NCBI GenBank assembly: GCA_937894085.1
Contig: CALCSG010000553.1
Coordinates: forward strand, 1 to 32,546
Direction: 5' to 3'
Length of the DNA: 32,546 nucleotides
Source: an uncultured Gammaproteobacteria bacterium
GTDB lineage: Bacteria > Pseudomonadota > Gammaproteobacteria > GCA-001735895
Positions within the stretch are counted from its first letter, which is position 1. Every line of letters begins with the position of its first letter. The position numbers and the translations under genes were made by a program. The notes under the pieces were generated by a model. That model was not told where the DNA came from and ran no database searches. It worked only from the letters and a program-made list of their open reading frames with translations. Positions 4,620 through 17,218 of this stretch are shown piece after piece.

Positions 4620-6764
4620 ATGGCTCAAAGCAGCATCACCCAGAGGTTTATTCTATGTATTGTACTGATGTTGTTAGTCAGTGGGGTATATAGCAGTGAT
4701 TTGTCCGAGCGTCAGATTACAAACCTGTCTTCGTCAGAACAACTTAATGGCGATTTCGATGCGATAAAAAAGCGTGGTAAATTGCGCATTATCATTCCGG
4801 CCAATATAGGAGGAGGTCGGTATCTGCCACGTAACGGTTCACCGGTTAGCGAACAACATGAAATAGTCGAAGCTTTTGCACAGTTCCATCATTTAATTCC
4901 AGAACTGATTATTGCTGAAAATTTTGGCGATATGATTCCCGCACTGGCTGACGGGCGTGCTGATATTGTTGCAGGTAATTTAACTATTACTGAGGCTCGT
5001 CGCAAAAATATAGAATTTTCCATCCCTCTGGCGCATGTACGCGAAAAAATTCTGGTACAAAAAACTGATAAAAGTATTCAGACAGTGGCTGACTTAAATC
5101 ATAAACGGGTCATGGTTTCCAGTGATTCTACTTTCTGGGATGCTTTACAGTGGCTAAAGAAGAATAAATATAAAGACATTCAATTACTGGCCAGACCGGC
5201 AGGTATGCTGGATGAAGAAGAGCTCGACCTGCTGGCCAAAGGTGAAATTGATGCGACCATACGCGATAGTAATATCGTCGATATGTATTCTGGATACAGA
5301 GATGATTTTAAGGTCGCCACCAACTTTAGTGGACAAAGAGATATCGCCTGGGGGGTACGCAAGGAGGCGCCAGGCCTGTTATTAGCGCTAAATGAGTTCT
5401 TACAGCTGGAGCACATGACTGCTGACGACAGTGAGTTTTCTACCGATGGTTTCGATAGCATTAAAAAACGTAAAGTGTTACGAGTTTTGCTCAGAAATAA
5501 TGCTTCATCCTATTTTTTATACAAGGGAGAATTGCTTGGTTTTGAATATGAAATGGCAAAAGCATTTGCCAAATTTCATGGTTTACGTCTGCAAGTGATT
5601 GTGCCACCGACACATAAAGAACTGCTCGGTTGGCTGGTTGACGGAAAAGCCGATCTGGCTATTGGTTTTCTGGAGCCGACAGCCAGACGCAAAGCGCTGG
5701 GTATTGAGTTTTCTGAACCTTATAACTATGAATCACAACATATAGTGGTTAATGGCAAAAGCACTATAAATAAATTGCAGGATCTGGATTCGCACACGAT
5801 CAGTGTCAGGAAATCGAGTGCTTACTGGGAAACCCTAACGAAACTTAAACAGTCGGGCAGCAGGTTTACCTTAAAACCTGCTCCTGAAGATGTGGAAACT
5901 GAAGAACTGATTAAGGCCGTTGGTTCTAAAAAAATTGATTTAACTATGGCCGATGAGCATATTCTGGATATAGAGCTGGCAAAATCTGTACCGGTAAAAT
6001 CGGCTTTTACAATTGGAGAAAAACGTCCTCAGGCAGTTGCTATACGCAAACATAATAAAAAATTAATTAATGCGATTAATGCTTTTATAAAAAAAAATAA
6101 TAAAAGTGAATATTATAATGTGCTGTATAAAAAATATTTTAAAAGTCGAAAATCAATCTTAAAACTGGCTAAAGGACGCATCCACAATATCGGCGAAAAT
6201 AATTTGTCACCGTGGGATAATATAACGCGCAAATATGCAGAAAAATATGGTTTTGACTGGCGCTTGATTACCGCCCAAATGTATCAGGAAAGTCGCTTTG
6301 ATCCTAAAGTGAAATCGTTTGCAGGTGCAAAAGGATTGATGCAGTTGATGCCACAGACTGCCAAGTCGGTTGGGGTTACAAATCTTGAAAAACCGGAAAA
6401 TAGTATCAGGGGCGGGATAAAATACATGGACTGGTTACGTGACAGGTTTGATGAAAGCCTGCATGTTTCAGAGAGGTTGTGGTTCACGTTGGCCGCTTAT
6501 AATGCAGGGTATGGTCATGTGCAGGATGCTCAACGGCTGGCCAGTAAAAAAGGCTGGGACAAAAAACGCTGGTTTGATAATACAGAAAAAGCGATGTTGT
6601 TATTGTCCAGAAAAGATTATTCCAGTAAAGCAAGATATGGCTATGTGGATGGAGATGAACCGGTTCAGTATGTGAGAAGTATTCGTGACCGTTTCGAAGC
6701 GTATGCAAAACTTAATCAGAATAAAATATCACAACAGAACAGTTTAATTATTGCGCGCGAATAG
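4620..6764 (+). CDS. MltF-like lytic transglycosylase with two solute-binding domains
   Basis: A 714-residue envelope protein. An N-terminal hydrophobic signal (about residues 8-24) is followed by two tandem family-3 periplasmic solute-binding domains (about 50-262 and 280-510) and a C-terminal SLT-type lytic transglycosylase domain (about 530-665). Each binding domain starts with the same pattern (FDAIKKRGKLRI at 46, FDSIKKRKVLRV at 278), which suggests an internal duplication. The transglycosylase domain has the catalytic glutamate in QESRFDP (Glu557), the GLMQLMPQTA block (572-581) and AYNAG (626-630), so it is likely active in cleaving peptidoglycan to 1,6-anhydromuropeptides. E. coli MltF has one binding domain, so this is an extended relative. 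No lipobox cysteine is seen after the signal. The start is ATG 4620 with a poor Shine-Dalgarno. It appears to be transcribed alone. Confidence 0.88.
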   Translation: MAQSSITQRFILCIVLMLLVSGVYSSDLSERQITNLSSSEQLNGDFDAIKKRGKLRIIIPANIGGGRYLPRNGSPVSEQHEIVEAFAQFHHLIPELIIAENFGDMIPALADGRADIVAGNLTITEARRKNIEFSIPLAHVREKILVQKTDKSIQTVADLNHKRVMVSSDSTFWDALQWLKKNKYKDIQLLARPAGMLDEEELDLLAKGEIDATIRDSNIVDMYSGYRDDFKVATNFSGQRDIAWGVRKEAPGLLLALNEFLQLEHMTADDSEFSTDGFDSIKKRKVLRVLLRNNASSYFLYKGELLGFEYEMAKAFAKFHGLRLQVIVPPTHKELLGWLVDGKADLAIGFLEPTARRKALGIEFSEPYNYESQHIVVNGKSTINKLQDLDSHTISVRKSSAYWETLTKLKQSGSRFTLKPAPEDVETEELIKAVGSKKIDLTMADEHILDIELAKSVPVKSAFTIGEKRPQAVAIRKHNKKLINAINAFIKKNNKSEYYNVLYKKYFKSRKSILKLAKGRIHNIGENNLSPWDNITRKYAEKYGFDWRLITAQMYQESRFDPKVKSFAGAKGLMQLMPQTAKSVGVTNLEKPENSIRGGIKYMDWLRDRFDESLHVSERLWFTLAAYNAGYGHVQDAQRLASKKGWDKKRWFDNTEKAMLLLSRKDYSSKARYGYVDGDEPVQYVRSIRDRFEAYAKLNQNKISQQNSLIIARE

Positions 6765-8309: not shown

Positions 8310-9803
8310 TTAACTGGCATTTACCTGTGCGCTCATTGATAGTCTCATGGATGATCTTAAGTAGCGTGATAGAGTATCGATGCAAACATTTAACAGCGCA
8401 GTGATGGTGATTAACATCATGGCCCGATCGAGCCGGATATCCTGAATAGCACTGTCGATATAAAACCCCAGGGTGGCGATTCCTAAAATTCCCAGAATGG
8501 CTGTCTCGCGCAAAATAATTTCCCAGCGGTAAAACAGGAATGCCAGGAACTGGCCATAGATTCGAGGTACCACTTCGTAAAAATATCGATTGAAACCTTT
8601 TGCCGCATCCTGGCGTATAGGCAGAGCATCGCTATAACGACCCATCAGGTGAGCGATAATAGCCCCGTTATGCAGAGCCAGCGCAATGATAGCCGGTAAC
8701 ATTGATGGCCCCCACAGGGTCAATAGAATGAATGCAAGAATATATTCCGGTGTAGAACGCATGACTACCAGAAAAAGATGTCCCGCACTACGCGCAAATC
8801 GAGCAAAAAATAATTTAGAAATTAATGGAAACCATATAAGAGCAATAAATCCGGTCAGAATCAGGGCTAGCTGAGTTAATAATAAACTGTTAACAATACC
8901 GGGCAGAGCCTCGTTCATGAATAGTTCAGAAAACCAGTGCCAGAGTCCGTTTAAATCCTCTCCCCGACGTATCGGTAGAGGGATAATGTCATGGGTGAAA
9001 AATCTAATGACATTGTCAAATGAAATGCTGCTGTCATTGGCGATGATGAAAGGTGAAGCAACCAGGTACAGGGGTAACAGTTTCGGTCTAACCCAGTATT
9101 TGATGCCGGCAATTAACAGGTAAAAAAGAATTAATAAAGCCCAGACTTCTGAATACAGTCCTTCATAAAAGGCAGTACTCAGGTAATAACCTAATGTGGG
9201 CAGCCCGACAAAACCCAGCACGGCACTGGAACGTAAACCACATTCCAGGCGGTAACTGGTATAGGTGATAAAGTGTTGCCACAGGTCGGGTAATCTGGCG
9301 TAAAAAAAAGAAGAAGTAAGGCCTGCACTGTGGCGAATGTTGTCATATGCCCGACGATCACCTTCTTCCAGAATTTCTGCATACACTTTGGCAAAAGTGG
9401 CAGCATAGGGCAGACCAATGGCGAGCAATCCTGTCAACGGGTGTAAGCCGAATATTTGCAAAAAAATTAAAGCCCAGAATAATTCATGAACAGCACGAAC
9501 TAAAGCGCAGAGTATTCTAACCAGTCGAAAATGAAATAACTGTGCCAGGACAAAACCGCTGATGCATCCGGCCGAAACTCCGAGCATGGCAAAAGCGACG
9601 GTTTGCAATAGCGCATGTAACGGGTTTTCAATATTGAATAGTGACGGTGATAACAGGCCGGAAAACAATCGCCCCAGTTCAGACATCGGGTCATAGGTGT
9701 TTATCGACAGGTCTGCGAAAGGCAGGCAGGCCAGGGCTATGGCTATAAAAATCCAGCTTACTTTCCATCGGGCTGAACGTATATGGCTTAGACCTTTATT
9801 CAC
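8310..9803 (-). CDS. PhnE-like ABC transporter permease, two fused permease domains (putative selenium oxyanion importer)
   Basis: A 497-residue inner-membrane protein made of two consecutive binding-protein-dependent permease domains (about 1-255 and 285-497), each with several hydrophobic segments. Standard PhnE proteins are about 260 residues and dimerise; here both halves are one chain. Corresponding segments of the two halves can be matched: SYRLECGLRSSAVLGFVGLP with FYRWEIILRETAILGILGIA, and RAVHELFWALIFLQIFGLHP with RSTPEYILAFILLTLWGPSM. The start is GTG 9803, overlapping the ATPase gene by 8 bp, so translation is probably coupled. It is the last gene of the order binding protein, ATPase, permease. 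No carbon-phosphorus lyase or phosphonatase gene is present, while the neighbours are selenium genes, so selenate or selenite is a more likely cargo than phosphonate. Substrate is inferred. Confidence 0.85.
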   Translation of the reverse strand: MNKGLSHIRSARWKVSWIFIAIALACLPFADLSINTYDPMSELGRLFSGLLSPSLFNIENPLHALLQTVAFAMLGVSAGCISGFVLAQLFHFRLVRILCALVRAVHELFWALIFLQIFGLHPLTGLLAIGLPYAATFAKVYAEILEEGDRRAYDNIRHSAGLTSSFFYARLPDLWQHFITYTSYRLECGLRSSAVLGFVGLPTLGYYLSTAFYEGLYSEVWALLILFYLLIAGIKYWVRPKLLPLYLVASPFIIANDSSISFDNVIRFFTHDIIPLPIRRGEDLNGLWHWFSELFMNEALPGIVNSLLLTQLALILTGFIALIWFPLISKLFFARFARSAGHLFLVVMRSTPEYILAFILLTLWGPSMLPAIIALALHNGAIIAHLMGRYSDALPIRQDAAKGFNRYFYEVVPRIYGQFLAFLFYRWEIILRETAILGILGIATLGFYIDSAIQDIRLDRAMMLITITALLNVCIDTLSRYLRSSMRLSMSAQVNAS

Positions 9804-10446
9804 CGTAGAGTTCTAACAGGTCTTCTCGTTTGAGGTTTTTAGCGGCCTCATCAATAGTAATTCGTCCATGATCGAGGCCGATGATACGGTCGCAATAGGC
9901 CAGCGCCAGGTCAATATCGTGCATGGCAAGAACAACAGTGTCAAAGAGTCTGCATAATAGTGACATCACCAGTTTAGACTGTTGCTCATCAAGTGATGAA
10001 ACGGGCTCATCGGCCAGCAAAATATCGCCACCCTGCATAATCGCCCGTGCTATTGAAGTTCGTTGCTGTTGACCACCGGATAGTTGAGCGACCGGTTCGA
10101 ACAGTTTGTCGCTCAACTGCATTTCCTGCAGTATCTGTTCAACTTCAGCAACCGGCTTTTTAAGTGGTTTGATTAAATTGAGCAGGTTGTAGCCGACAGA
10201 TTGCCGACCCAGCTGGCCCATGTAGACATTGTGATATACCGAGAGACTGGCAACCAGCCCATAATCCTGTGGTACCAGCGCGATATCTTTCGGGCGTTGT
10301 TCATAAAGCAGTTTAATAAGTGTCGATTTACCGGAACCACTGTGCCCCACCAGTGCCAGCTTCTGGCCGGCAGGAATGTGCAGGGTAATATCAGTCAGCA
10401 CAATTTCATCTTTATACGAGGCATTGGCTGACTGTAGATTAAACAC
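9796..10446 (-). CDS. PhnC-like ABC transporter ATPase (putative selenium oxyanion importer)
   Basis: A 216-residue cytoplasmic ATPase subunit. Walker A is GHSGSGKST (residues 34-42), the Q-loop is VPQD (Gln60), the signature is LSGGQ (122-126), Walker B is ILLADE (142-147) and the H-loop histidine is in MHDID (His176). All catalytic features are intact, although the protein is shorter than typical PhnC (about 250-260). The start is GTG 10446, ten bases after the binding-protein stop codon. It overlaps the permease gene by 8 bp. It should power the importer formed with the flanking subunits. Confidence 0.9.
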   Translation of the reverse strand: MFNLQSANASYKDEIVLTDITLHIPAGQKLALVGHSGSGKSTLIKLLYEQRPKDIALVPQDYGLVASLSVYHNVYMGQLGRQSVGYNLLNLIKPLKKPVAEVEQILQEMQLSDKLFEPVAQLSGGQQQRTSIARAIMQGGDILLADEPVSSLDEQQSKLVMSLLCRLFDTVVLAMHDIDLALAYCDRIIGLDHGRITIDEAAKNLKREDLLELYGE

Positions 10447-10456
10447 CAGATCAGGA

Positions 10457-11338
10457 CTAGTCGATTAAGCCGATTTCCTTAGCGGTATCAAGGATGGGCT
10501 GGTAATCATTATTGCTGGCCTTGATGAAACTGCTGCGTGGAAAAGCTTCCAGTAGTGCCGGGTCTTTCATATCCAGCAGGGCTTGCTGAACACGCGCCTT
10601 AAAGCCTTCTCCCCATTCTTTATCAACATCTCCGCGAATGGACCATTGATAGTCAGGATAAGCGGGAGTTTTCCAGATTACAGAAACTTTACTGCCATCA
10701 ATTTTTCCGTCTTGCATTTCCTTTTCCCATACTTTGTAATTAGTTGCACCAACCTGATAAGCACCGGTTTGTACCAGTGCAATTGTGCGTGAGTGATTTC
10801 CACTGAACCCGACACGTGAAAAAGTATCATCCGGGGATTTTTTTAAATATTCACGAATATAAAACTCAGGCATTAATCGACCAGAAGTCGAACCTTTTGA
10901 GCCGAATGTGAAGGTTTTTCCGGCAATATCGGCGGGGAATGCTGCGGACTCTTTTAGCCCTGTACTGTGATGAGCAATAAAGTACGTTACGAACTCTGTG
11001 TCTTCCTTGCCCTGGGCAATGGCTTCAGAACCGGGCACCAGTAGACGCGCACGTACACCGGATAATCCGCCAAACCAGGCCAGTTGAATCTGATTATTTC
11101 TAAACGAAGTGATGGCCGCCGAATACGATTTGACCGGTACATATTTTACCGGAATACCCAGTTGCTGAGTAAGGTAGTCGGCTACTTTCCCAAATCGCTT
11201 GATTAACTGAGATTGATCCTGGTCGGGAATGGCAGAAAATACCAGTGTTTTTGGTGCACTGTATACCTGGGTAGAAAAAGAGATGGCCAGTATTGACAGG
11301 CAAAAAAACTGAGTAATACGATTAATTTTTGTTTTCAT
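10457..11338 (-). CDS. PhnD-family periplasmic binding protein (putative selenate-binding type)
   Basis: A 293-residue secreted binding protein. Residues 1-28 form a typical signal peptide with probable cleavage after VYSA. The mature part has the PhnD-family layout: VFSAIPDQDQSQL, then YLTQQLGIPVKYVPVKSY, NNQIQLAWFGG and FTFGSKGSTSGRLMPEF. Family members bind tetrahedral oxyanions such as phosphonate or phosphite. A subfamily found near selD genes is described in protein family collections as putative selenate-binding. This gene sits with senB, senA and selD, which supports that role, but the ligand is not proven. The ATG at 11338 has a strong AAGGAG box (11345-11350, minus strand), so this subunit is probably the most abundant product of the operon. 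Confidence 0.88.
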   Translation of the reverse strand: MKTKINRITQFFCLSILAISFSTQVYSAPKTLVFSAIPDQDQSQLIKRFGKVADYLTQQLGIPVKYVPVKSYSAAITSFRNNQIQLAWFGGLSGVRARLLVPGSEAIAQGKEDTEFVTYFIAHHSTGLKESAAFPADIAGKTFTFGSKGSTSGRLMPEFYIREYLKKSPDDTFSRVGFSGNHSRTIALVQTGAYQVGATNYKVWEKEMQDGKIDGSKVSVIWKTPAYPDYQWSIRGDVDKEWGEGFKARVQQALLDMKDPALLEAFPRSSFIKASNNDYQPILDTAKEIGLID

Positions 11339-11554
11339 TTAAGACTCCTTTTAGTGTTTTTAATTATTTACCTGAATCCGTAGCTTCAGGTATTGCCCCA
11401 TAAATAATATAAGTTTTCTGGCAGATAAAAAACGTTATCTTTCATGAGGCTAAACAGTAACTGCTTTTTAACTTGCTGTGCTTGATAGTGATCAGCATGG
11501 CAATACAATATTGCTGAGTCATATTGCTAGCTTTTTCATACTAAATATCCTGCT
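11339..11554 (-). promoter_or_regulatory. Leader region of transporter operon with several dyads
   Basis: The 216 bp between senB and the binding-protein gene are long enough for a separate promoter. They contain a dyad with arms ACCTGAA (11370-11376) and TTCAGGT (11385-11391) in the leader, a dyad GATAA (11424-11428)/TTATC (11435-11439), and one just after senB with alternative pairings TCAGCA/TGCTGA (11492-11517) or GCAATA/TATTGC (11500-11514). None has a T-run, so none is a clear intrinsic terminator. A regulatory role is only suggested. Confidence 0.35.
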
Positions 11555-12502
11555 TTATAATTTATTTAGAAGTTGCCGCCAGCCGTTTAGTTCATTATCT
11601 GTGGTGAATAATGGCTGTCTGGCGATACAGGCCTTTTCTAACTGGTTATAAAATTTGTGATCTGACTCTGCTTTTAGCAGAAGTTCTGATAATGCCTGCT
11701 CATCTTCAACCGGATAATATCCCGCATAGTCTTCTCCGAGTAAGCCGATCGAACCTTCTATATTGGAGGCGATGACCGGAATACCTGCCACTATTGCTTC
11801 CGAGATGACATTGGCTCCGCCTTCCATCCGTGAGGGTAGCAGCAGCACATGAGTGCGTTGATAAACCTGTCGAATTTTGTGATGTGCAATTTCCCCATGC
11901 CAGTGATAGCGGGAATTTATTCGCATCTCTGCTGTGGCCTGTTGTGCCCACTCAGCTGAATGCGCCTTGCCAAAATGATGAACCTGGATACGACTGCTGG
12001 CAGGCAGATTGCGTACTGCCATGGCAGGTCTCATGGGGTCTTTTTCTTCGCGTAAATGACCCATTACTGATACGTGAAAATAGCGTTTGTATGGATTACG
12101 TTTAGCGACAGGTTCGGCAGACTGATGAATGACATGCATTTTATGCCGTTGATCTGCGGGCAGGGTATTGTTGATTAAATCATGCAGCCCCACCAGTTGA
12201 TGTGCCAGTCGAATGGATTGCAAAGTGGGTTGCGGGTGACTATGGATGAAACGATAGGCATCAGTACCGGTGATAGCGACAATTAACGGCCGATGCGGGA
12301 ACCGTTCAGCAAACAGTTGAATGGAGTCGGCACTACGCCAGGCATGTAAAGCCAGCATCATATCAGCAGTCTGGTTTGTATAGGACACACTGATTTCGAC
12401 TGTATGTCCTAATGTCCTGAGTATATGTGCCCAACGGGCGGCAGTGGCCCGGTTGCCTGCTCTGGAGCGGGGTGGAGCAGGTGTGATAAGAAGTATGCGC
12501 AT
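11555..12502 (-). CDS. senB: Selenosugar synthase SenB (glycosyltransferase-like)
   Basis: A 315-residue GT-B-fold protein of the family first catalogued as a selenium-associated glycosyltransferase and later shown to be SenB, which forms a carbon-selenium bond by joining selenophosphate to a UDP-sugar. The N-terminus MRILLITPAPPRSRAGNRAT carries the SRxGNR segment typical of this family. The C-terminal half has the nucleotide-sugar binding motif PSRMEGGANVISEAIVAG (Glu227 and Glu235) and GIPVIASNIEGS. The frame extends upstream to 12541, but the ATG at 12502 gives the conserved N-terminus. It is divergent from senA with 121 bp between the starts. The assignment rests on motif pattern plus the senA/selD context. 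Confidence 0.9.
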   Translation of the reverse strand: MRILLITPAPPRSRAGNRATAARWAHILRTLGHTVEISVSYTNQTADMMLALHAWRSADSIQLFAERFPHRPLIVAITGTDAYRFIHSHPQPTLQSIRLAHQLVGLHDLINNTLPADQRHKMHVIHQSAEPVAKRNPYKRYFHVSVMGHLREEKDPMRPAMAVRNLPASSRIQVHHFGKAHSAEWAQQATAEMRINSRYHWHGEIAHHKIRQVYQRTHVLLLPSRMEGGANVISEAIVAGIPVIASNIEGSIGLLGEDYAGYYPVEDEQALSELLLKAESDHKFYNQLEKACIARQPLFTTDNELNGWRQLLNKL

Positions 12503-12623
12503 TGTTTTATTATTAACCTTACCTTCGGCTAACCATATCATAAATAATCGTCAGGATGACATCCGTTCCACAGCATGGGACAATGGCTTTCATACTTTTA
12601 GCCAACAAATTTTAAAAAGCTGT
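12503..12623. promoter_or_regulatory. Divergent senB/senA promoter region
   Basis: These 121 bp separate the start codons of senB (minus) and senA (plus), so both promoters should lie here. Overlapping short dyads occur at GTCA-GGA-TGAC (12550-12560) and GGAT-GAC-ATCC (12554-12564), near the middle. GGCTAA (12527-12532) and TTAGCC (12598-12603) form a widely spaced inverted pair. No consensus promoter could be fixed with confidence. Confidence 0.4.
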
Positions 12624-13925
12624 ATGGATAAACTGAATCCCATCGTTATCGCTGAACAGGCGCAGGATGCACATTGTCGCACATTAGCATTAATCGAAGG
12701 ACTGGATGCCGAACAGTTAATGGGGCCGTTGCTGGCAACGGTAAACCCGTTGCGCTGGGAAATAGGGCATGCAGCATATTTTTATGAATACTGGGTCCTG
12801 TGCCATCACCTGCAGCAACCATCGATTCGTGAAGATTCTGATGATTTGTATGATTCAATCACTATCGCCCATGATGATCGCTGGAATTTAGCGTTACCTG
12901 AACTGTCAGAAACATTGAATTATATGCAGACTGTGCTGGAAAATATAAAGCAATGTCTTGCTGGCGGAGAAGATGCCAGGCGCGATTACCTGGCGTTATA
13001 CGCTGTATTTCATCACGATATGCATAACGAAGCCTATACCTATACCCGGCAAACCCTGAATTACCCGACTCCTGATTATGGCGGGGATAGCAGTAACAAT
13101 TATCAGGCCGGTGCGCTACCGGGTGATGTGCAAATACCCGGTGGACGCTTTAAGTTAGGGGCAACAGCAGAGGATGGTTTTGTTTTTGATAATGAGAAAT
13201 GGGCGCATGAAGTCGATATAAAACCATTTGGCATTGCAAAAGCAGCGGTCAGTAATGCTGATTTTTTGAAATTTGTGGAAGCAGGTGGCTATAACAATAA
13301 ACAATACTGGCTGGATGAAGGCTGGAAATGGCGCGAAAAATCAAACCTGGCGCATCCTGTGTACTGGCGTAATACTTCATCAGGCTGGGATATAAAGCAG
13401 TTTGATCAATGGAACCCGATGCCGGTGAATGCAGCAATCATTCATGTAAGCTGGTTTGAAGCACAGGCTTACTGTCGTTGGGCCGGAAGACGCTTGCCGG
13501 GCGAAGCGGAATGGGAAGTGGCAGCTTCAGCAGAAGCAAGTCTGGATGGAAAAAAATTATCGGCCAGTAAACGACACTTTCCCTGGGGAGATGAAGCTCC
13601 CCGTGCTGATCAGGCTAACCTGGACGGATACGCACTCGGAACAGTGGATGTTGCTGCATTTCCAGCCGGTGACTCGGCTTTTGGCTGCCGACAGATGATC
13701 GGCAATGTATGGGAATGGACAGAGGACAGCTTTAATCCCTATCCGGGATTTAAAGCGGATATGTACCAGGATTATTCGCAACCTTTATTCGGCATTACCA
13801 AAGTTTTACGTGGAGGGGCCTGGCCCACACGTGGCAGAATGATTAGAAATACCTGGCGCACCTACTATGGCCCCGATAGAAATGATGTTTTTGCCGGTTT
13901 TCGTACCTGTGCCCTGAATGAGTAG
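12624..13925 (+). CDS. senA: Selenoneine synthase SenA (EgtB-like)
   Basis: A 433-residue iron enzyme of the EgtB/OvoA/SenA superfamily. SenA couples the selenosugar from SenB to hercynine and leads to selenoneine. The N-terminal DinB-like domain has the three iron-ligand histidines: His49 in EIGHAAYFYEYW and the HX3HXE motif HHDMHNE (His130, His134). The C-terminal formylglycine-generating-enzyme-like domain (about 165-433) shows HVSWFEAQAYCRWAGRRLP, GNVWEWTEDSF and LRGGAW. The frame is open to 12444, but that part runs through senB; the ATG at 12624 starts the conserved domain, although no good Shine-Dalgarno is present. It is called SenA rather than ergothioneine EgtB because of the adjacent senB and selD and the absence of egtA, egtC and egtE. 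The sequence alone would allow EgtB. It overlaps egtD by 8 bp. Confidence 0.88.
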   Translation: MDKLNPIVIAEQAQDAHCRTLALIEGLDAEQLMGPLLATVNPLRWEIGHAAYFYEYWVLCHHLQQPSIREDSDDLYDSITIAHDDRWNLALPELSETLNYMQTVLENIKQCLAGGEDARRDYLALYAVFHHDMHNEAYTYTRQTLNYPTPDYGGDSSNNYQAGALPGDVQIPGGRFKLGATAEDGFVFDNEKWAHEVDIKPFGIAKAAVSNADFLKFVEAGGYNNKQYWLDEGWKWREKSNLAHPVYWRNTSSGWDIKQFDQWNPMPVNAAIIHVSWFEAQAYCRWAGRRLPGEAEWEVAASAEASLDGKKLSASKRHFPWGDEAPRADQANLDGYALGTVDVAAFPAGDSAFGCRQMIGNVWEWTEDSFNPYPGFKADMYQDYSQPLFGITKVLRGGAWPTRGRMIRNTWRTYYGPDRNDVFAGFRTCALNE

Positions 13926-14904
13926 CAGACCATTGAGAAAAAATAAAATACAGTTTCATGATTTACATACCAGTCGCAACGAATTCGCCAGCGATGTTTT
14001 AAAGGGGCTGAGTGTTCGCCCGGCATCGATACCACCGAAATATTTTTACGATGCCAAAGGCTCAAAATTATTTGATGCCATTACACAATTACCTGAATAT
14101 TATCCAACTCGCACCGAGATAGATCTTTTATCAAATAACGCAGCACAAATAGCCCGACACGTTGGAACCGGAAGTTTACTGGTTGAGCCGGGTGGTGGTA
14201 GTTGTGCCAAAGTACATATTTTACTGGAAGGACTGAAACCCCGGGCATACGTGCCGATGGATATTTCCAGGGATCACTTGCAGCTGGCGGCAGAAGAGCT
14301 GGCTATTGCCTTTCCATGGCTGGAAATCCATGCTGCCTGTACCGATTTTACGCAGGAAATGTCATTACCGCCGAGTGCGCCCAGGGGCACACATGTCGCG
14401 TTTTTTCCGGGTTCCAGTATAGGTAATTTTGATCCTGATGCTGCGGTCGTATTTTTACAGGCAATAGCTGAATTAGTGGGACCGGGAGGCTACCTGTTAA
14501 TTGGTGTAGATCTGAAAAAAGACAAGGCAATACTGGAAGCGGCTTATGATGATTCAGCTGGCATAACGGCTTCATTTAATTTGAATTTACTGTCGCGTAT
14601 AAATCACGAGTTAAATGCTAATTTTGATTTAACAAAATGGCGACATAAAGCGTTATATAACGAACAGGTTGGTCGTATTGAAATGCATCTGGTAAGTCAG
14701 CAGGATCAAACTGTGGAAATCAATGAGGATTCTTTTAGTTTTGTTGAAGGTGAAACTATTCATACCGAAAATTCGTATAAATATACCAGTGATGAATTTA
14801 TCAGGCTGGCTTCGAAAGCCGGTTTTCAATCGGATGAGTTATGGATAGATGGAAATCGTTTATTCAGTGTGCATCTGTTCAGGGTTAATGATTTGCAGCG
14901 CTAA
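13918..14904 (+). CDS. egtD: L-histidine N-alpha-methyltransferase EgtD
   Basis: A cytoplasmic SAM-dependent enzyme that trimethylates histidine to hercynine, the acceptor in ergothioneine and selenoneine synthesis. It has 328 residues, near the usual 320-330. The family start PPKYFYDAKGSKLFDAITQL and EYYPTRTE (residues 39-67) are present. The SAM-binding loop is LLVEPGGGSCAKV (about 87-99), followed by FPGSSIGNFDP and GGYLLIGVDLKKD. The start ATG 13918 lies inside the end of senA, an 8-bp overlap that implies translational coupling. Its place between senA and the selD fusion makes hercynine supply for selenoneine its evident job. Confidence 0.96.
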   Translation: MSSRPLRKNKIQFHDLHTSRNEFASDVLKGLSVRPASIPPKYFYDAKGSKLFDAITQLPEYYPTRTEIDLLSNNAAQIARHVGTGSLLVEPGGGSCAKVHILLEGLKPRAYVPMDISRDHLQLAAEELAIAFPWLEIHAACTDFTQEMSLPPSAPRGTHVAFFPGSSIGNFDPDAAVVFLQAIAELVGPGGYLLIGVDLKKDKAILEAAYDDSAGITASFNLNLLSRINHELNANFDLTKWRHKALYNEQVGRIEMHLVSQQDQTVEINEDSFSFVEGETIHTENSYKYTSDEFIRLASKAGFQSDELWIDGNRLFSVHLFRVNDLQR

Positions 14905-14956: not shown

Positions 14957-17218
14957 ATGAAAAGTAATAATTCTCCCGTAGTAAAAGATCTGGTGCTGAT
15001 TGGTGGCGGTCATGCGCATGTTGCTGTGTTAAAACGTCTAGGCATGCAACCTGTCCCGGGGTTAAGAATTACCCTGGTTACACGCGATATTCATACACCA
15101 TATTCCGGCATGTTGCCGGGTTATGTAGCCGGTCATTATAGTTATGATGATTGTCATATTGATCTTGGTCCGCTGGCAAGATTTGCCGGAGCACGTCTAT
15201 ATCATGCACCGGTAACAGGCCTTGATATCAAAAATAAACAGGTGCTGGCTGCGGGTCGGCCAGCTATCAATTACGATCTACTTTCCATTAACACCGGCTC
15301 AAGACCCGATAGTGTCAATATTCCGGGTGTTGATGAATTTGCCATAGCAGCTAAACCCATCGATATCTTTTTAACAAAATGGGAGGCGCTGATCGAGCGC
15401 GTAAGCAATAGCCAGGGTGAATTTAAAGTCGTCGTAGTGGGCGGTGGAGCCGGTGGTGTCGAACTGGCATTATCCACACAGCACCGTTTACAAAACATGT
15501 TACGTGAGCAGGGTGACGATCCTCAACGATTGAGTTATACCCTGTTAACGCAAAGTGATCGTATCATGCATATGCATAATGGCGGAGTGCGGGACCGTTT
15601 TGAGCGCATATTTAGTGAGCGTGATATCTCTATTAAAGTTAGAAGTAGAGTGGCTGAAGTTAAAGCCGATCAGGTATTGCTGGATGATGGCACTGTATTT
15701 TCTACTGATGCGATTATATGGGTGACTACGGCATCCGCCCCTGCCTGGCCTGCTGAAGCGGGACTTTCCGTCGATGAAAATGGTTTCATCCGGGTCGATA
15801 AAAACCTGCAATCACTATCACACGAAGGTATTTTCGCAGCGGGTGATATTGCTTCGCTGAAAGATCCCAGGCCAAAATCCGGTGTTTTTGCGGTCCGTCA
15901 GGGACCGGTTTTAGTGCATAACCTTAAAGCTGCTGCGACTCACAAAAGGTTAAGGCCATATCGACCGCAAAAGAATTTTCTGGGACTGATTAGTACCGGG
16001 GACAAATATGCTATCGCATCACGCGGGAATTTTTCGTTTGAATCAGCCTGGTTGTGGAAAGTTAAAGACTGGATTGATGTGCAGTTCATGAGAAAATTTA
16101 ATGAATTGCCTGACATGGATGAACAGGATAATCCCCGCTTTGCCTCGGGTATAGCCGATGCGGATGCGATTAAGGAGCTTTCAACGCTGGCAATGCGCTG
16201 TGGTGGTTGCGGTGCCAAAGTGGGTGCCACCATTTTATCCAGGGTCATGCAAAGGTTACCCGATGAAAAACGTGATGATGTATTGATCGGCAGAGATTCA
16301 CCGGATGACTGTGCCATGCTGGCAGTACCACCAGGCAAGGTCATGGTACAAAGTGTGGATTATTTTCGCGCTTTTATCGAAGATAGCTATACATTCGGGG
16401 CCATAGCGGCTAACCATGCACTTGGAGATGTATTTGCGATGGGTGGAGAAGCTCAGTCGGTACTGGCTATTGCGACGGTTCCCTACGGTCGTGAACGGGT
16501 GGTGGAAGAAACATTATATGATGTGATGGCTGGAGCCATGTCAATAATTCAACCCAGTGGAGCGGTATTAGCTGGTGGACATTCCAGTGAAGGGGCCGAA
16601 CTTGCTTTTGGTTTGACGGTGAACGGCCTGATCGACCCGAACAGAGTCTGGCGTAAGAGCGGATTACAACCGGGTGATGCAATTATTTTAACCAAGGCTA
16701 TCGGCACTGGTACCTTATTTGCTGCAGAAATGCGCGGTAAAGCGAAAGGCCGTTGGGTTGATGCTGCCATACAGTCCATGCTGGTTTCCAGTCAACAGGC
16801 CGCTGAATGCCTGCAGCGGTTTAATGCCACGGCCTGCACAGATCTGACCGGCTTTGGTATCATCGGGCACCTGATCGAAATGACAAAAGCTTCTCAGGTT
16901 GATGCAGAGATTTATATGGATAACTTGCCATTACTGGATGGAGCAATGGAAACTGTGGCTGCCGGTATCCTGTCTTCGTTACAGCCTGCTAATCTTCGCT
17001 TGCGTCGGGCCATTCATGATATTGAAAATGCAGCAAAGCATCCAGCTTTTCCACTGCTATTCGATCCGCAAACCGCTGGCGGTTTACTGGCCGGTGTACC
17101 TGCTAAAAAAGCAGAAGCCTGCGTAGCAGAACTAACAAAACTGGGGTATACAAACACCCGCATAATTGGTAGTGTAAACGATTTATCTGATGAGCAGGCA
17201 CCTGTGCAAATAAAGTAG
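14957..17218 (+). CDS. selD: Fused NADH-type FAD oxidoreductase - selenide, water dikinase (SelD/SenC)
   Basis: A 753-residue two-domain protein. Residues about 10-385 form an NDH-2-like pyridine-nucleotide oxidoreductase: the FAD dinucleotide loop is LIGGGHAHVAVL (14-25), the NAD(P) loop is VVGGGAGGVELAL (160-172), and FAAGDIAS (293-300) is the second FAD contact. Residues about 408-753 are SelD, which makes selenophosphate from selenide and ATP. The SelD active site is CGGCGAK, with Cys418 and Lys421 matching Cys17 and Lys20 of E. coli SelD. The residue is cysteine (TGC), not selenocysteine. SPDDCAML and GGHSSEGAE follow as expected. Such fusions are known, and the oxidoreductase part is thought to supply reduced selenium. 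In a sen cluster the SelD protein is also called SenC. It lies 52 bp after egtD, probably in the same operon. Confidence 0.95.
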   Translation: MKSNNSPVVKDLVLIGGGHAHVAVLKRLGMQPVPGLRITLVTRDIHTPYSGMLPGYVAGHYSYDDCHIDLGPLARFAGARLYHAPVTGLDIKNKQVLAAGRPAINYDLLSINTGSRPDSVNIPGVDEFAIAAKPIDIFLTKWEALIERVSNSQGEFKVVVVGGGAGGVELALSTQHRLQNMLREQGDDPQRLSYTLLTQSDRIMHMHNGGVRDRFERIFSERDISIKVRSRVAEVKADQVLLDDGTVFSTDAIIWVTTASAPAWPAEAGLSVDENGFIRVDKNLQSLSHEGIFAAGDIASLKDPRPKSGVFAVRQGPVLVHNLKAAATHKRLRPYRPQKNFLGLISTGDKYAIASRGNFSFESAWLWKVKDWIDVQFMRKFNELPDMDEQDNPRFASGIADADAIKELSTLAMRCGGCGAKVGATILSRVMQRLPDEKRDDVLIGRDSPDDCAMLAVPPGKVMVQSVDYFRAFIEDSYTFGAIAANHALGDVFAMGGEAQSVLAIATVPYGRERVVEETLYDVMAGAMSIIQPSGAVLAGGHSSEGAELAFGLTVNGLIDPNRVWRKSGLQPGDAIILTKAIGTGTLFAAEMRGKAKGRWVDAAIQSMLVSSQQAAECLQRFNATACTDLTGFGIIGHLIEMTKASQVDAEIYMDNLPLLDGAMETVAAGILSSLQPANLRLRRAIHDIENAAKHPAFPLLFDPQTAGGLLAGVPAKKAEACVAELTKLGYTNTRIIGSVNDLSDEQAPVQIK

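Follow-up and report, generated by a model that had tools for sequence, protein, structure and literature searches.

The stretch of DNA analysed here (the window) comprises positions 1 to 32,546 of contig CALCSG010000553.1, from assembly GCA_937894085.1 of an uncultured Gammaproteobacteria bacterium, and carries on its minus strand three genes predicted to form an ATP-binding cassette (ABC) importer. An earlier note, made from the letters alone, had proposed them as a candidate transporter of selenium oxyanions, and the three open reading frames (ORFs) it described, a fused permease of 497 residues, an ATPase of 216 residues and a PhnD-like binding protein, lie on the minus strand where it placed them. 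Genomic comparisons in two phyla lead us to regard the family to which the locus belongs, TIGR04553, these three genes included, as probably a selenium importer, with selenite favoured as the main form that it would bring in. The genes of the locus and its surroundings are as follows.

8310-9803, minus strand: single-chain double permease, a PhnE-PhnE fusion of 497 residues with a GTG start (ORF; TIGR01097 in two stretches; AlphaFold2 model)
9796-10446, minus strand: ABC ATPase, PhnC-like, 216 residues, GTG start (ORF; family match; alignment)
10457-11338, minus strand: periplasmic binding protein, TIGR04553 member, 293 residues, ATG start (ORF; 381 bits; model)
11339-11554, minus strand: spacer of 216 base pairs (bp) between senB and the binding-protein gene
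11555-12541, minus strand: SenB, selenosugar synthase (TIGR04348, 413 bits, cut-off 300; true start possibly near 12502, by eye)
12444-13925, plus strand: SenA, selenoneine synthase (NF041186, 495 bits, cut-off 420; true start possibly near 12624, by eye)
13918-14904, plus strand: EgtD, histidine N-alpha-methyltransferase (TIGR03438, 411 bits)
14957-17218, plus strand: oxidoreductase-SelD fusion (TIGR03169 and TIGR00476; SelD part 291 bits, cut-off 125)

Read along the minus strand, senB is followed after 216 bp by the binding-protein gene, then after 10 nucleotides by the ATPase gene and, with an overlap of 8 nucleotides, by the fused permease gene, all on the same strand, which bears out the description of an operon abutting senB. 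The senA, egtD and oxidoreductase-selD fusion genes lie on the plus strand and point away from senB. With senA, senB and selD together, each over its cut-off, the selenoneine (sen) cluster is complete; the fusion is the sole SelD over cut-off in the source assembly by profile search, and the source genome also encodes mnmH (2-selenouridine synthase). By eye, the binding protein begins with a signal peptide, and an AAGGAG Shine-Dalgarno-like stretch precedes its ATG within the 216-bp spacer. Scans for promoters and terminators, with results near the mean for shuffled sequence, listed no terminator-like or minus-strand promoter-like site inside this spacer. Regulation of the locus by RNA was considered and rejected, there being no Rfam match. 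The claim that no phosphonate-degrading gene is present holds for PhnJ, the carbon-phosphorus lyase, of which there is none across the entire source assembly; PtxD was not among the seven neighbouring proteins covered by family scans, no search aimed at phosphite dehydrogenase having been made.

Family membership and clade traits

On TIGR04553 the binding protein reaches 381 bits against a cut-off of 250, the match covering positions 1-266 of 266, and NCBIfam names this family "putative selenate ABC transporter substrate-binding protein" (hypoth_equivalog). Because the protein exceeds the cut-off, the selenium reading already exists as an annotation: the idea of selenium import is well supported by the genomics below and is not new, since the NCBIfam name precedes it. 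The binding protein also passes Pfam Phosphonate-bd, and all three proteins fall under the cut-offs of the phosphonate importer families: PhnD (TIGR03431, 145.6 bits, cut-off 261.1) for the binding protein, PhnE (TIGR01097, 195 bits in two stretches, cut-off 216.7) for the permease, and PhnC (TIGR02315, 165.5 bits, cut-off 266.1) for the ATPase. The locus is thus a member of a known, only predicted family. AlphaFold2 models of the binding protein and the permease have predicted local distance difference test (pLDDT) values of 90.8 and 87.8, respectively; the closest solved structures to the binding protein, by sequence and by fold, are 7s6g and 5lq5, and the top PDB match to the permease is the FbpBC single-chain permease (E 1e-4). 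A scan of viral_contigs found no relative.

The solved structures 7s6g and 5lq5 are of PhnD1 proteins of marine picocyanobacteria. Partial sequences of PhnD1 from Synechococcus MITS9220 (7s6g) and from Prochlorococcus MIT9301 (5lq5, 5lq8) score 338 and 302 bits on TIGR04553, and therefore both proteins belong to the family by the NCBIfam criterion. What is new here is this placing of the crystallised PhnD1 of Prochlorococcus and Synechococcus in the TIGR04553 family on the strength of its sequence. We found no literature joining PhnDCE, selenium and cyanobacteria in a search that left most subscription journals uncovered, so earlier publication is possible.

A tree of 89 rows (71 from the family, including 17 of 80 cyanobacterial loci, and 18 from the outgroup; L005, dropped, and L006, which had no match, were left out) recovers the family as one clade of 71 rows (support 100/99), with one long-branch outgroup row of unsure place inside it. 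The family divides into clade A (the window and its relatives, 16 rows), clade B (others from the window's phylum, 19) and clade C (cyanobacteria, 36); the window protein lies in clade A (100/99), and clades A and C are sisters (97/88). Single-chain permeases occur in all 14 clade-A loci that have a permease, in most clade-C loci where a permease was found, and, judged by a single open frame, in L052, L055 and L063, so that "split permease" is an approximate label for clade B, 3 of whose 19 loci carry a single permease frame. The ATPase owes its small size to the absence of about 25 residues between Walker A and the Q-loop; in the alignment its catalytic motifs are intact (Walker A, Q-loop, LSGGQ, Walker B, switch histidine), and the same deletion is found in 8 of 8 clade-A sequences aligned, in 0 of 3 from clade B and in 0 of 1 from clade C. 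The fused permease and the short ATPase are clade traits, and neither is specific to members linked to senB. The fusion, singled out by the earlier note as unusual, was accordingly rejected as a novelty: besides the clade-A and clade-B loci it is found in many cyanobacterial ones, and single-chain double permeases of the same layout are known (FbpB).

Co-occurrence with selenium genes in two phyla

Among 398 genomes drawn across the window's phylum, taken to be Pseudomonadota, the TIGR04553 family is present in 34 (326-423 bits, the next match scoring 171), spanning 11 families and 22 genera. These carriers have selD in 32 of 34 cases, against 97 of 364 non-carriers (p=4e-15, uncorrected for kinship). 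Of the 32 genomes with both, 14 have the binding-protein gene within 10 kilobases (kb) of selD, where 0.15 were expected, and the linked cases span 7 families and 10 genera. As controls we used 89 PhnD-like matches below cut-off, the first ones among the matches listed: such matches are near selD in 0 of 47 cases in selD genomes and near phnJ in 9 of 22 cases in phnJ genomes, while TIGR04553 genes are near phnJ in 0 of 4. The earlier note had set down beforehand that wide occurrence of the transporter in genomes lacking selD would tell against its idea; this was not seen, neither in these carriers nor in the cyanobacterial carriers described below.

The neighbourhoods bear on an alternative reading, in which the family imports phosphite, phosphate or small phosphonates and came by its link to selD incidentally in the course of genome history. 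We consider this improbable. In both phyla the carriers track selD and mnmH, and the gene is found beside selD or senB and never beside phnJ. A role in phosphonate use was rejected outright, PhnJ being absent from the source assembly and rare in carriers (phnJ in 4 of 57, both phyla).

Two carriers have no selD, G263 (a genome 78% complete) and G143, the latter also without mnmH. In the TIGR04553 protein of G143 the cap tyrosine discussed below is replaced by threonine, and no ATPase or permease match was found in the 19-kb stretch searched around it. A genus-mate, G271, encodes beside selD a tandem pair of TIGR04553 binding proteins (L072, 8459-10345), one with the cap tyrosine replaced by asparagine; the nearest relative of the asparagine copy is the protein of the selD-less G143 (L073, 9002-9802). 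These cap-altered proteins may have taken on another role once selenium use was lost.

Selenoneine appears to be only one of the uses served. In favour of an importer dedicated to selenoneine synthesis, the gene is beside senB wherever a carrier has senB: senB is found in 13 of the 398 genomes, 8 of the 13 are carriers, and in all 8 it shares a contig with the transporter, within about 8 kb. However, senB is absent from 26 of the 34 carriers and from all 22 cyanobacterial carriers examined, mnmH is present in 31 of the 34, and members linked to senB occur scattered across clades A and B. What the transporter follows is therefore the use of selenium rather than one product, and a role in selenoneine alone was rejected; since the distribution already contradicts it for the family, we give a dedicated importer hardly any weight, and the coupling to selenoneine that the earlier note had suggested is not general. 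Five genomes have senB without the transporter family (L074-L078, from G219, G246, G338, G139 and G294); in the one whose senB neighbours were inspected, L076, these are an MlaE-like permease and hydrolases, with no oxyanion importer by name.

The same association is found in a second survey, of 194 cyanobacteria, where the family is present in 23 genomes, mnmH in 28 and selD in 37: all 23 carriers have both selD and mnmH, and the 171 non-carriers have mnmH in 5 cases and selD in 14. In 22 genomes chosen from the 80 cyanobacterial loci and checked for SelD, SenB and mnmH, SelD is over cut-off in 20, just under in one and missing in one; mnmH is over cut-off in 20, a fragment at a contig start in one and missing in one. 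The SelD fusion and ybbB (mnmH) in these cyanobacteria had already been noted in a passage of PMC1273633. According to the main text of PMC10284923, PhnD1 is present in all 97 picocyanobacteria examined there and shows no significant induction under phosphorus limitation, and WH8102 and MITS9220 do not grow on phosphite or methylphosphonate, the lack of induction and of growth running against a phosphorus importer; its authors consider the phosphite affinity fortuitous and propose phosphate transport.

The oxidoreductase-SelD fusion of WH7803 retains the cysteine and lysine of the SelD active-site motif, which have a catalytic role. NCBIfam TIGR04369, "fusion_not_SelD", covers oxidoreductase-SelD fusions, the window's fusion (14957-17218) falling under its cut-off; this name may mislead, because fusions such as L167 and L171 keep the cysteine-lysine motif and co-occur with mnmH in cyanobacteria. 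In the cyanobacterial non-carrier G602 there are in-frame stop codons inside both mnmH (C1:999918-1000739) and selD (C1:1389335-1390249), which looks like the decay of the entire selenium pathway. In the cyanobacterium G558 the frame of a match to mnmH (C1:1236013-1236921) is open except for a single in-frame TGA, which may reflect a frame error, a pseudogene or a selenocysteine codon.

The binding pocket and the form of selenium

The residues that hold the oxygens and cap the ligand in PhnD1 and PtxB are the same in the window protein (Y72, S150, T151, S152, H182, Y230 and D39), including the PtxB-type cap tyrosine with its aspartate partner (Y230, D39) and the S-T-S and histidine contacts (S150-T151-S152, H182). 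One position differs: Y94 of PtxB, a tyrosine that hydrogen-bonds an oxygen of phosphite, corresponds to F116 of the window protein, and in the alignment this position is phenylalanine in 71 of 71 family members and tyrosine in 17 of 18 outgroup rows. Phenylalanine in place of tyrosine at the ligand thus marks the TIGR04553 family, as far as the aligned sequences indicate, and the loss of that tyrosine argues against a phosphorus importer.

Selenite, a trigonal-pyramidal XO3 anion, closely resembles the PO3 part of phosphite in shape and carries a lone pair at the position of the phosphite hydrogen. As an isostere of phosphite it therefore makes a high-affinity selenite importer the favoured prediction. 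We think it rather unlikely that selenium enters instead as selenate or in a small organic acid, for instance methylseleninate. Selenate is the form in the NCBIfam name, and selenate and selenite are both natural forms. An organic acid would be in keeping with the weak tolerance of the cap pocket for methylphosphonate reported in the main text of PMC5700983. However, the cap tyrosine restricts a fourth substituent, and among the ligands measured the closest analogue of selenate is phosphate, whose binding is about 6- to 3500-fold weaker than that of phosphite by ratios that we took from published values; selenite is therefore preferred over the selenate of the family name. By this analogy, the pocket evidence points to selenite more than to selenate. 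A different oxyanion with this shape, sulfite or arsenite for example, seems very improbable as the substrate: the fold does have arsenic-oxyanion members, AioX and ArrX (PMC5908839), but these are distant (19-20% identity), and such a substrate would leave unexplained why the family is so strictly associated with selD and mnmH in both phyla.

Several observations weigh against a selenium importer. We found no measurement of binding or uptake with any selenium compound in the literature, and the main texts of PMC5700983 and PMC10284923 mention no selenium ligand (their supplements, including the ligand list in Table S1 of PMC10284923, were outside the search). PhnD1 binds phosphite with affinities of 0.67-4.3 µM (main text of PMC10284923), and for the Prochlorococcus protein, whose in vivo function is called unknown, with an affinity of 51 nM (main text of PMC5700983); there, recognition of phosphite involves a P-H...pi interaction with the cap tyrosine, a contact that selenite cannot make. 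On the genomic side, 20 of the 34 carriers have no selD within 10 kb (18 of them despite having selD), and none of the 80 picocyanobacterial loci, several of which end early at contig ends, shows a selenium gene within 10 kb of the transporter. Further, mnmH is not significantly commoner in carriers (31 of 34) than in selD genomes without the family (18 of 24, sampled from 97). These 97 selD genomes lack the family altogether, and other selenium import routes therefore exist. Finally, the genomes are not independent, and the co-occurrence tests are uncorrected for kinship. The phosphite affinities, together with the structures of PhnD1 with phosphite, methylphosphonate and phosphate (main texts of PMC5700983 and PMC10284923) and the oxygen-contact residues common to the family and PtxB, are also what speaks for a phosphorus importer.

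On the selenium reading, the three genes would encode an ABC importer of a selenium oxyanion, most likely selenite. The binding protein would close over SeO3(2-) or HSeO3(-), whose three oxygens would take the positions of the phosphite oxygens at the S-T-S, histidine and tyrosine contacts, with the selenite lone pair sitting beneath the cap tyrosine, where the P-H bond was. Uptake would be driven by the fused permease working with the short ATPase as a dimer; after reduction to selenide, the SelD fusion would form selenophosphate, which could supply both SenB and SenA for selenoneine and MnmH for 2-selenouridine in tRNA, all of them encoded in the source genome. The transporter would thereby serve selenium use generally, whatever sink a given genome has, and the picocyanobacterial PhnD1C1E1 system is a relative of it in the same family.

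Elsewhere in the window, positions 4620-6764 encode a 714-residue protein that combines a lytic transglycosylase (SLT) domain with two solute-binding stretches of family 3.

Comparison with known systems

Several known systems share parts of this transporter. The TIGR04553 name is itself a prediction, of selenate; the evidence here speaks rather for selenite and brings picocyanobacterial PhnD1 into the family. PtxB (5o2j, 5jvb, 5lv1), which is linked to PtxD, has the fold and oxyanion contacts of the window protein but is only 25-28% identical to it and has Y94 where the TIGR04553 family has phenylalanine. The PhnD/PhnJ phosphonate system resembles the locus in the Pfam Phosphonate-bd fold and in the PhnC- and PhnE-like partners; it differs in that the window proteins fall under its family cut-offs, the genome has no phnJ, and the window's cap residue is tyrosine rather than aspartate. 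The FbpB-type permease (9j4r) likewise places two permease domains on one chain of about 490 residues, but it belongs to an iron importer and is a remote match (15% identity, E 1e-4). AioX and ArrX show that a PhnD-type fold can take a metalloid oxyanion, although they are signalling components and not ABC importers.

According to passages in two reviews (PMC9312934, from 2022, and PMC13188914, from 2026), no high-affinity selenium transport system has been identified in prokaryotes. We lean slightly towards TIGR04553 being such a transporter, for selenite, with the picocyanobacterial PhnD1C1E1 feeding the SelD fusion and MnmH, its phosphite affinity being incidental mimicry. The near-perfect genomic linkage to selenium use, together with published crystal structures and culturable hosts, makes the transporter question testable. 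Compared with the window's transporter, PhnD1C1E1 has a binding protein 42-43% identical, with the same pocket, and a single-chain permease; its ATPase, however, is of normal length (252 residues), its locus is not beside selenium genes, and it was published as a binder of phosphite and phosphate. The link to PhnD1 is the part that specialists would find surprising. If the cyanobacterial member does take up selenite, the paradox of PMC10284923, a conserved, constitutive phosphite binder in cells unable to use phosphite, would be solved, and a transporter conserved in the most abundant phototrophs of the sea would move from the phosphorus to the selenium cycle.

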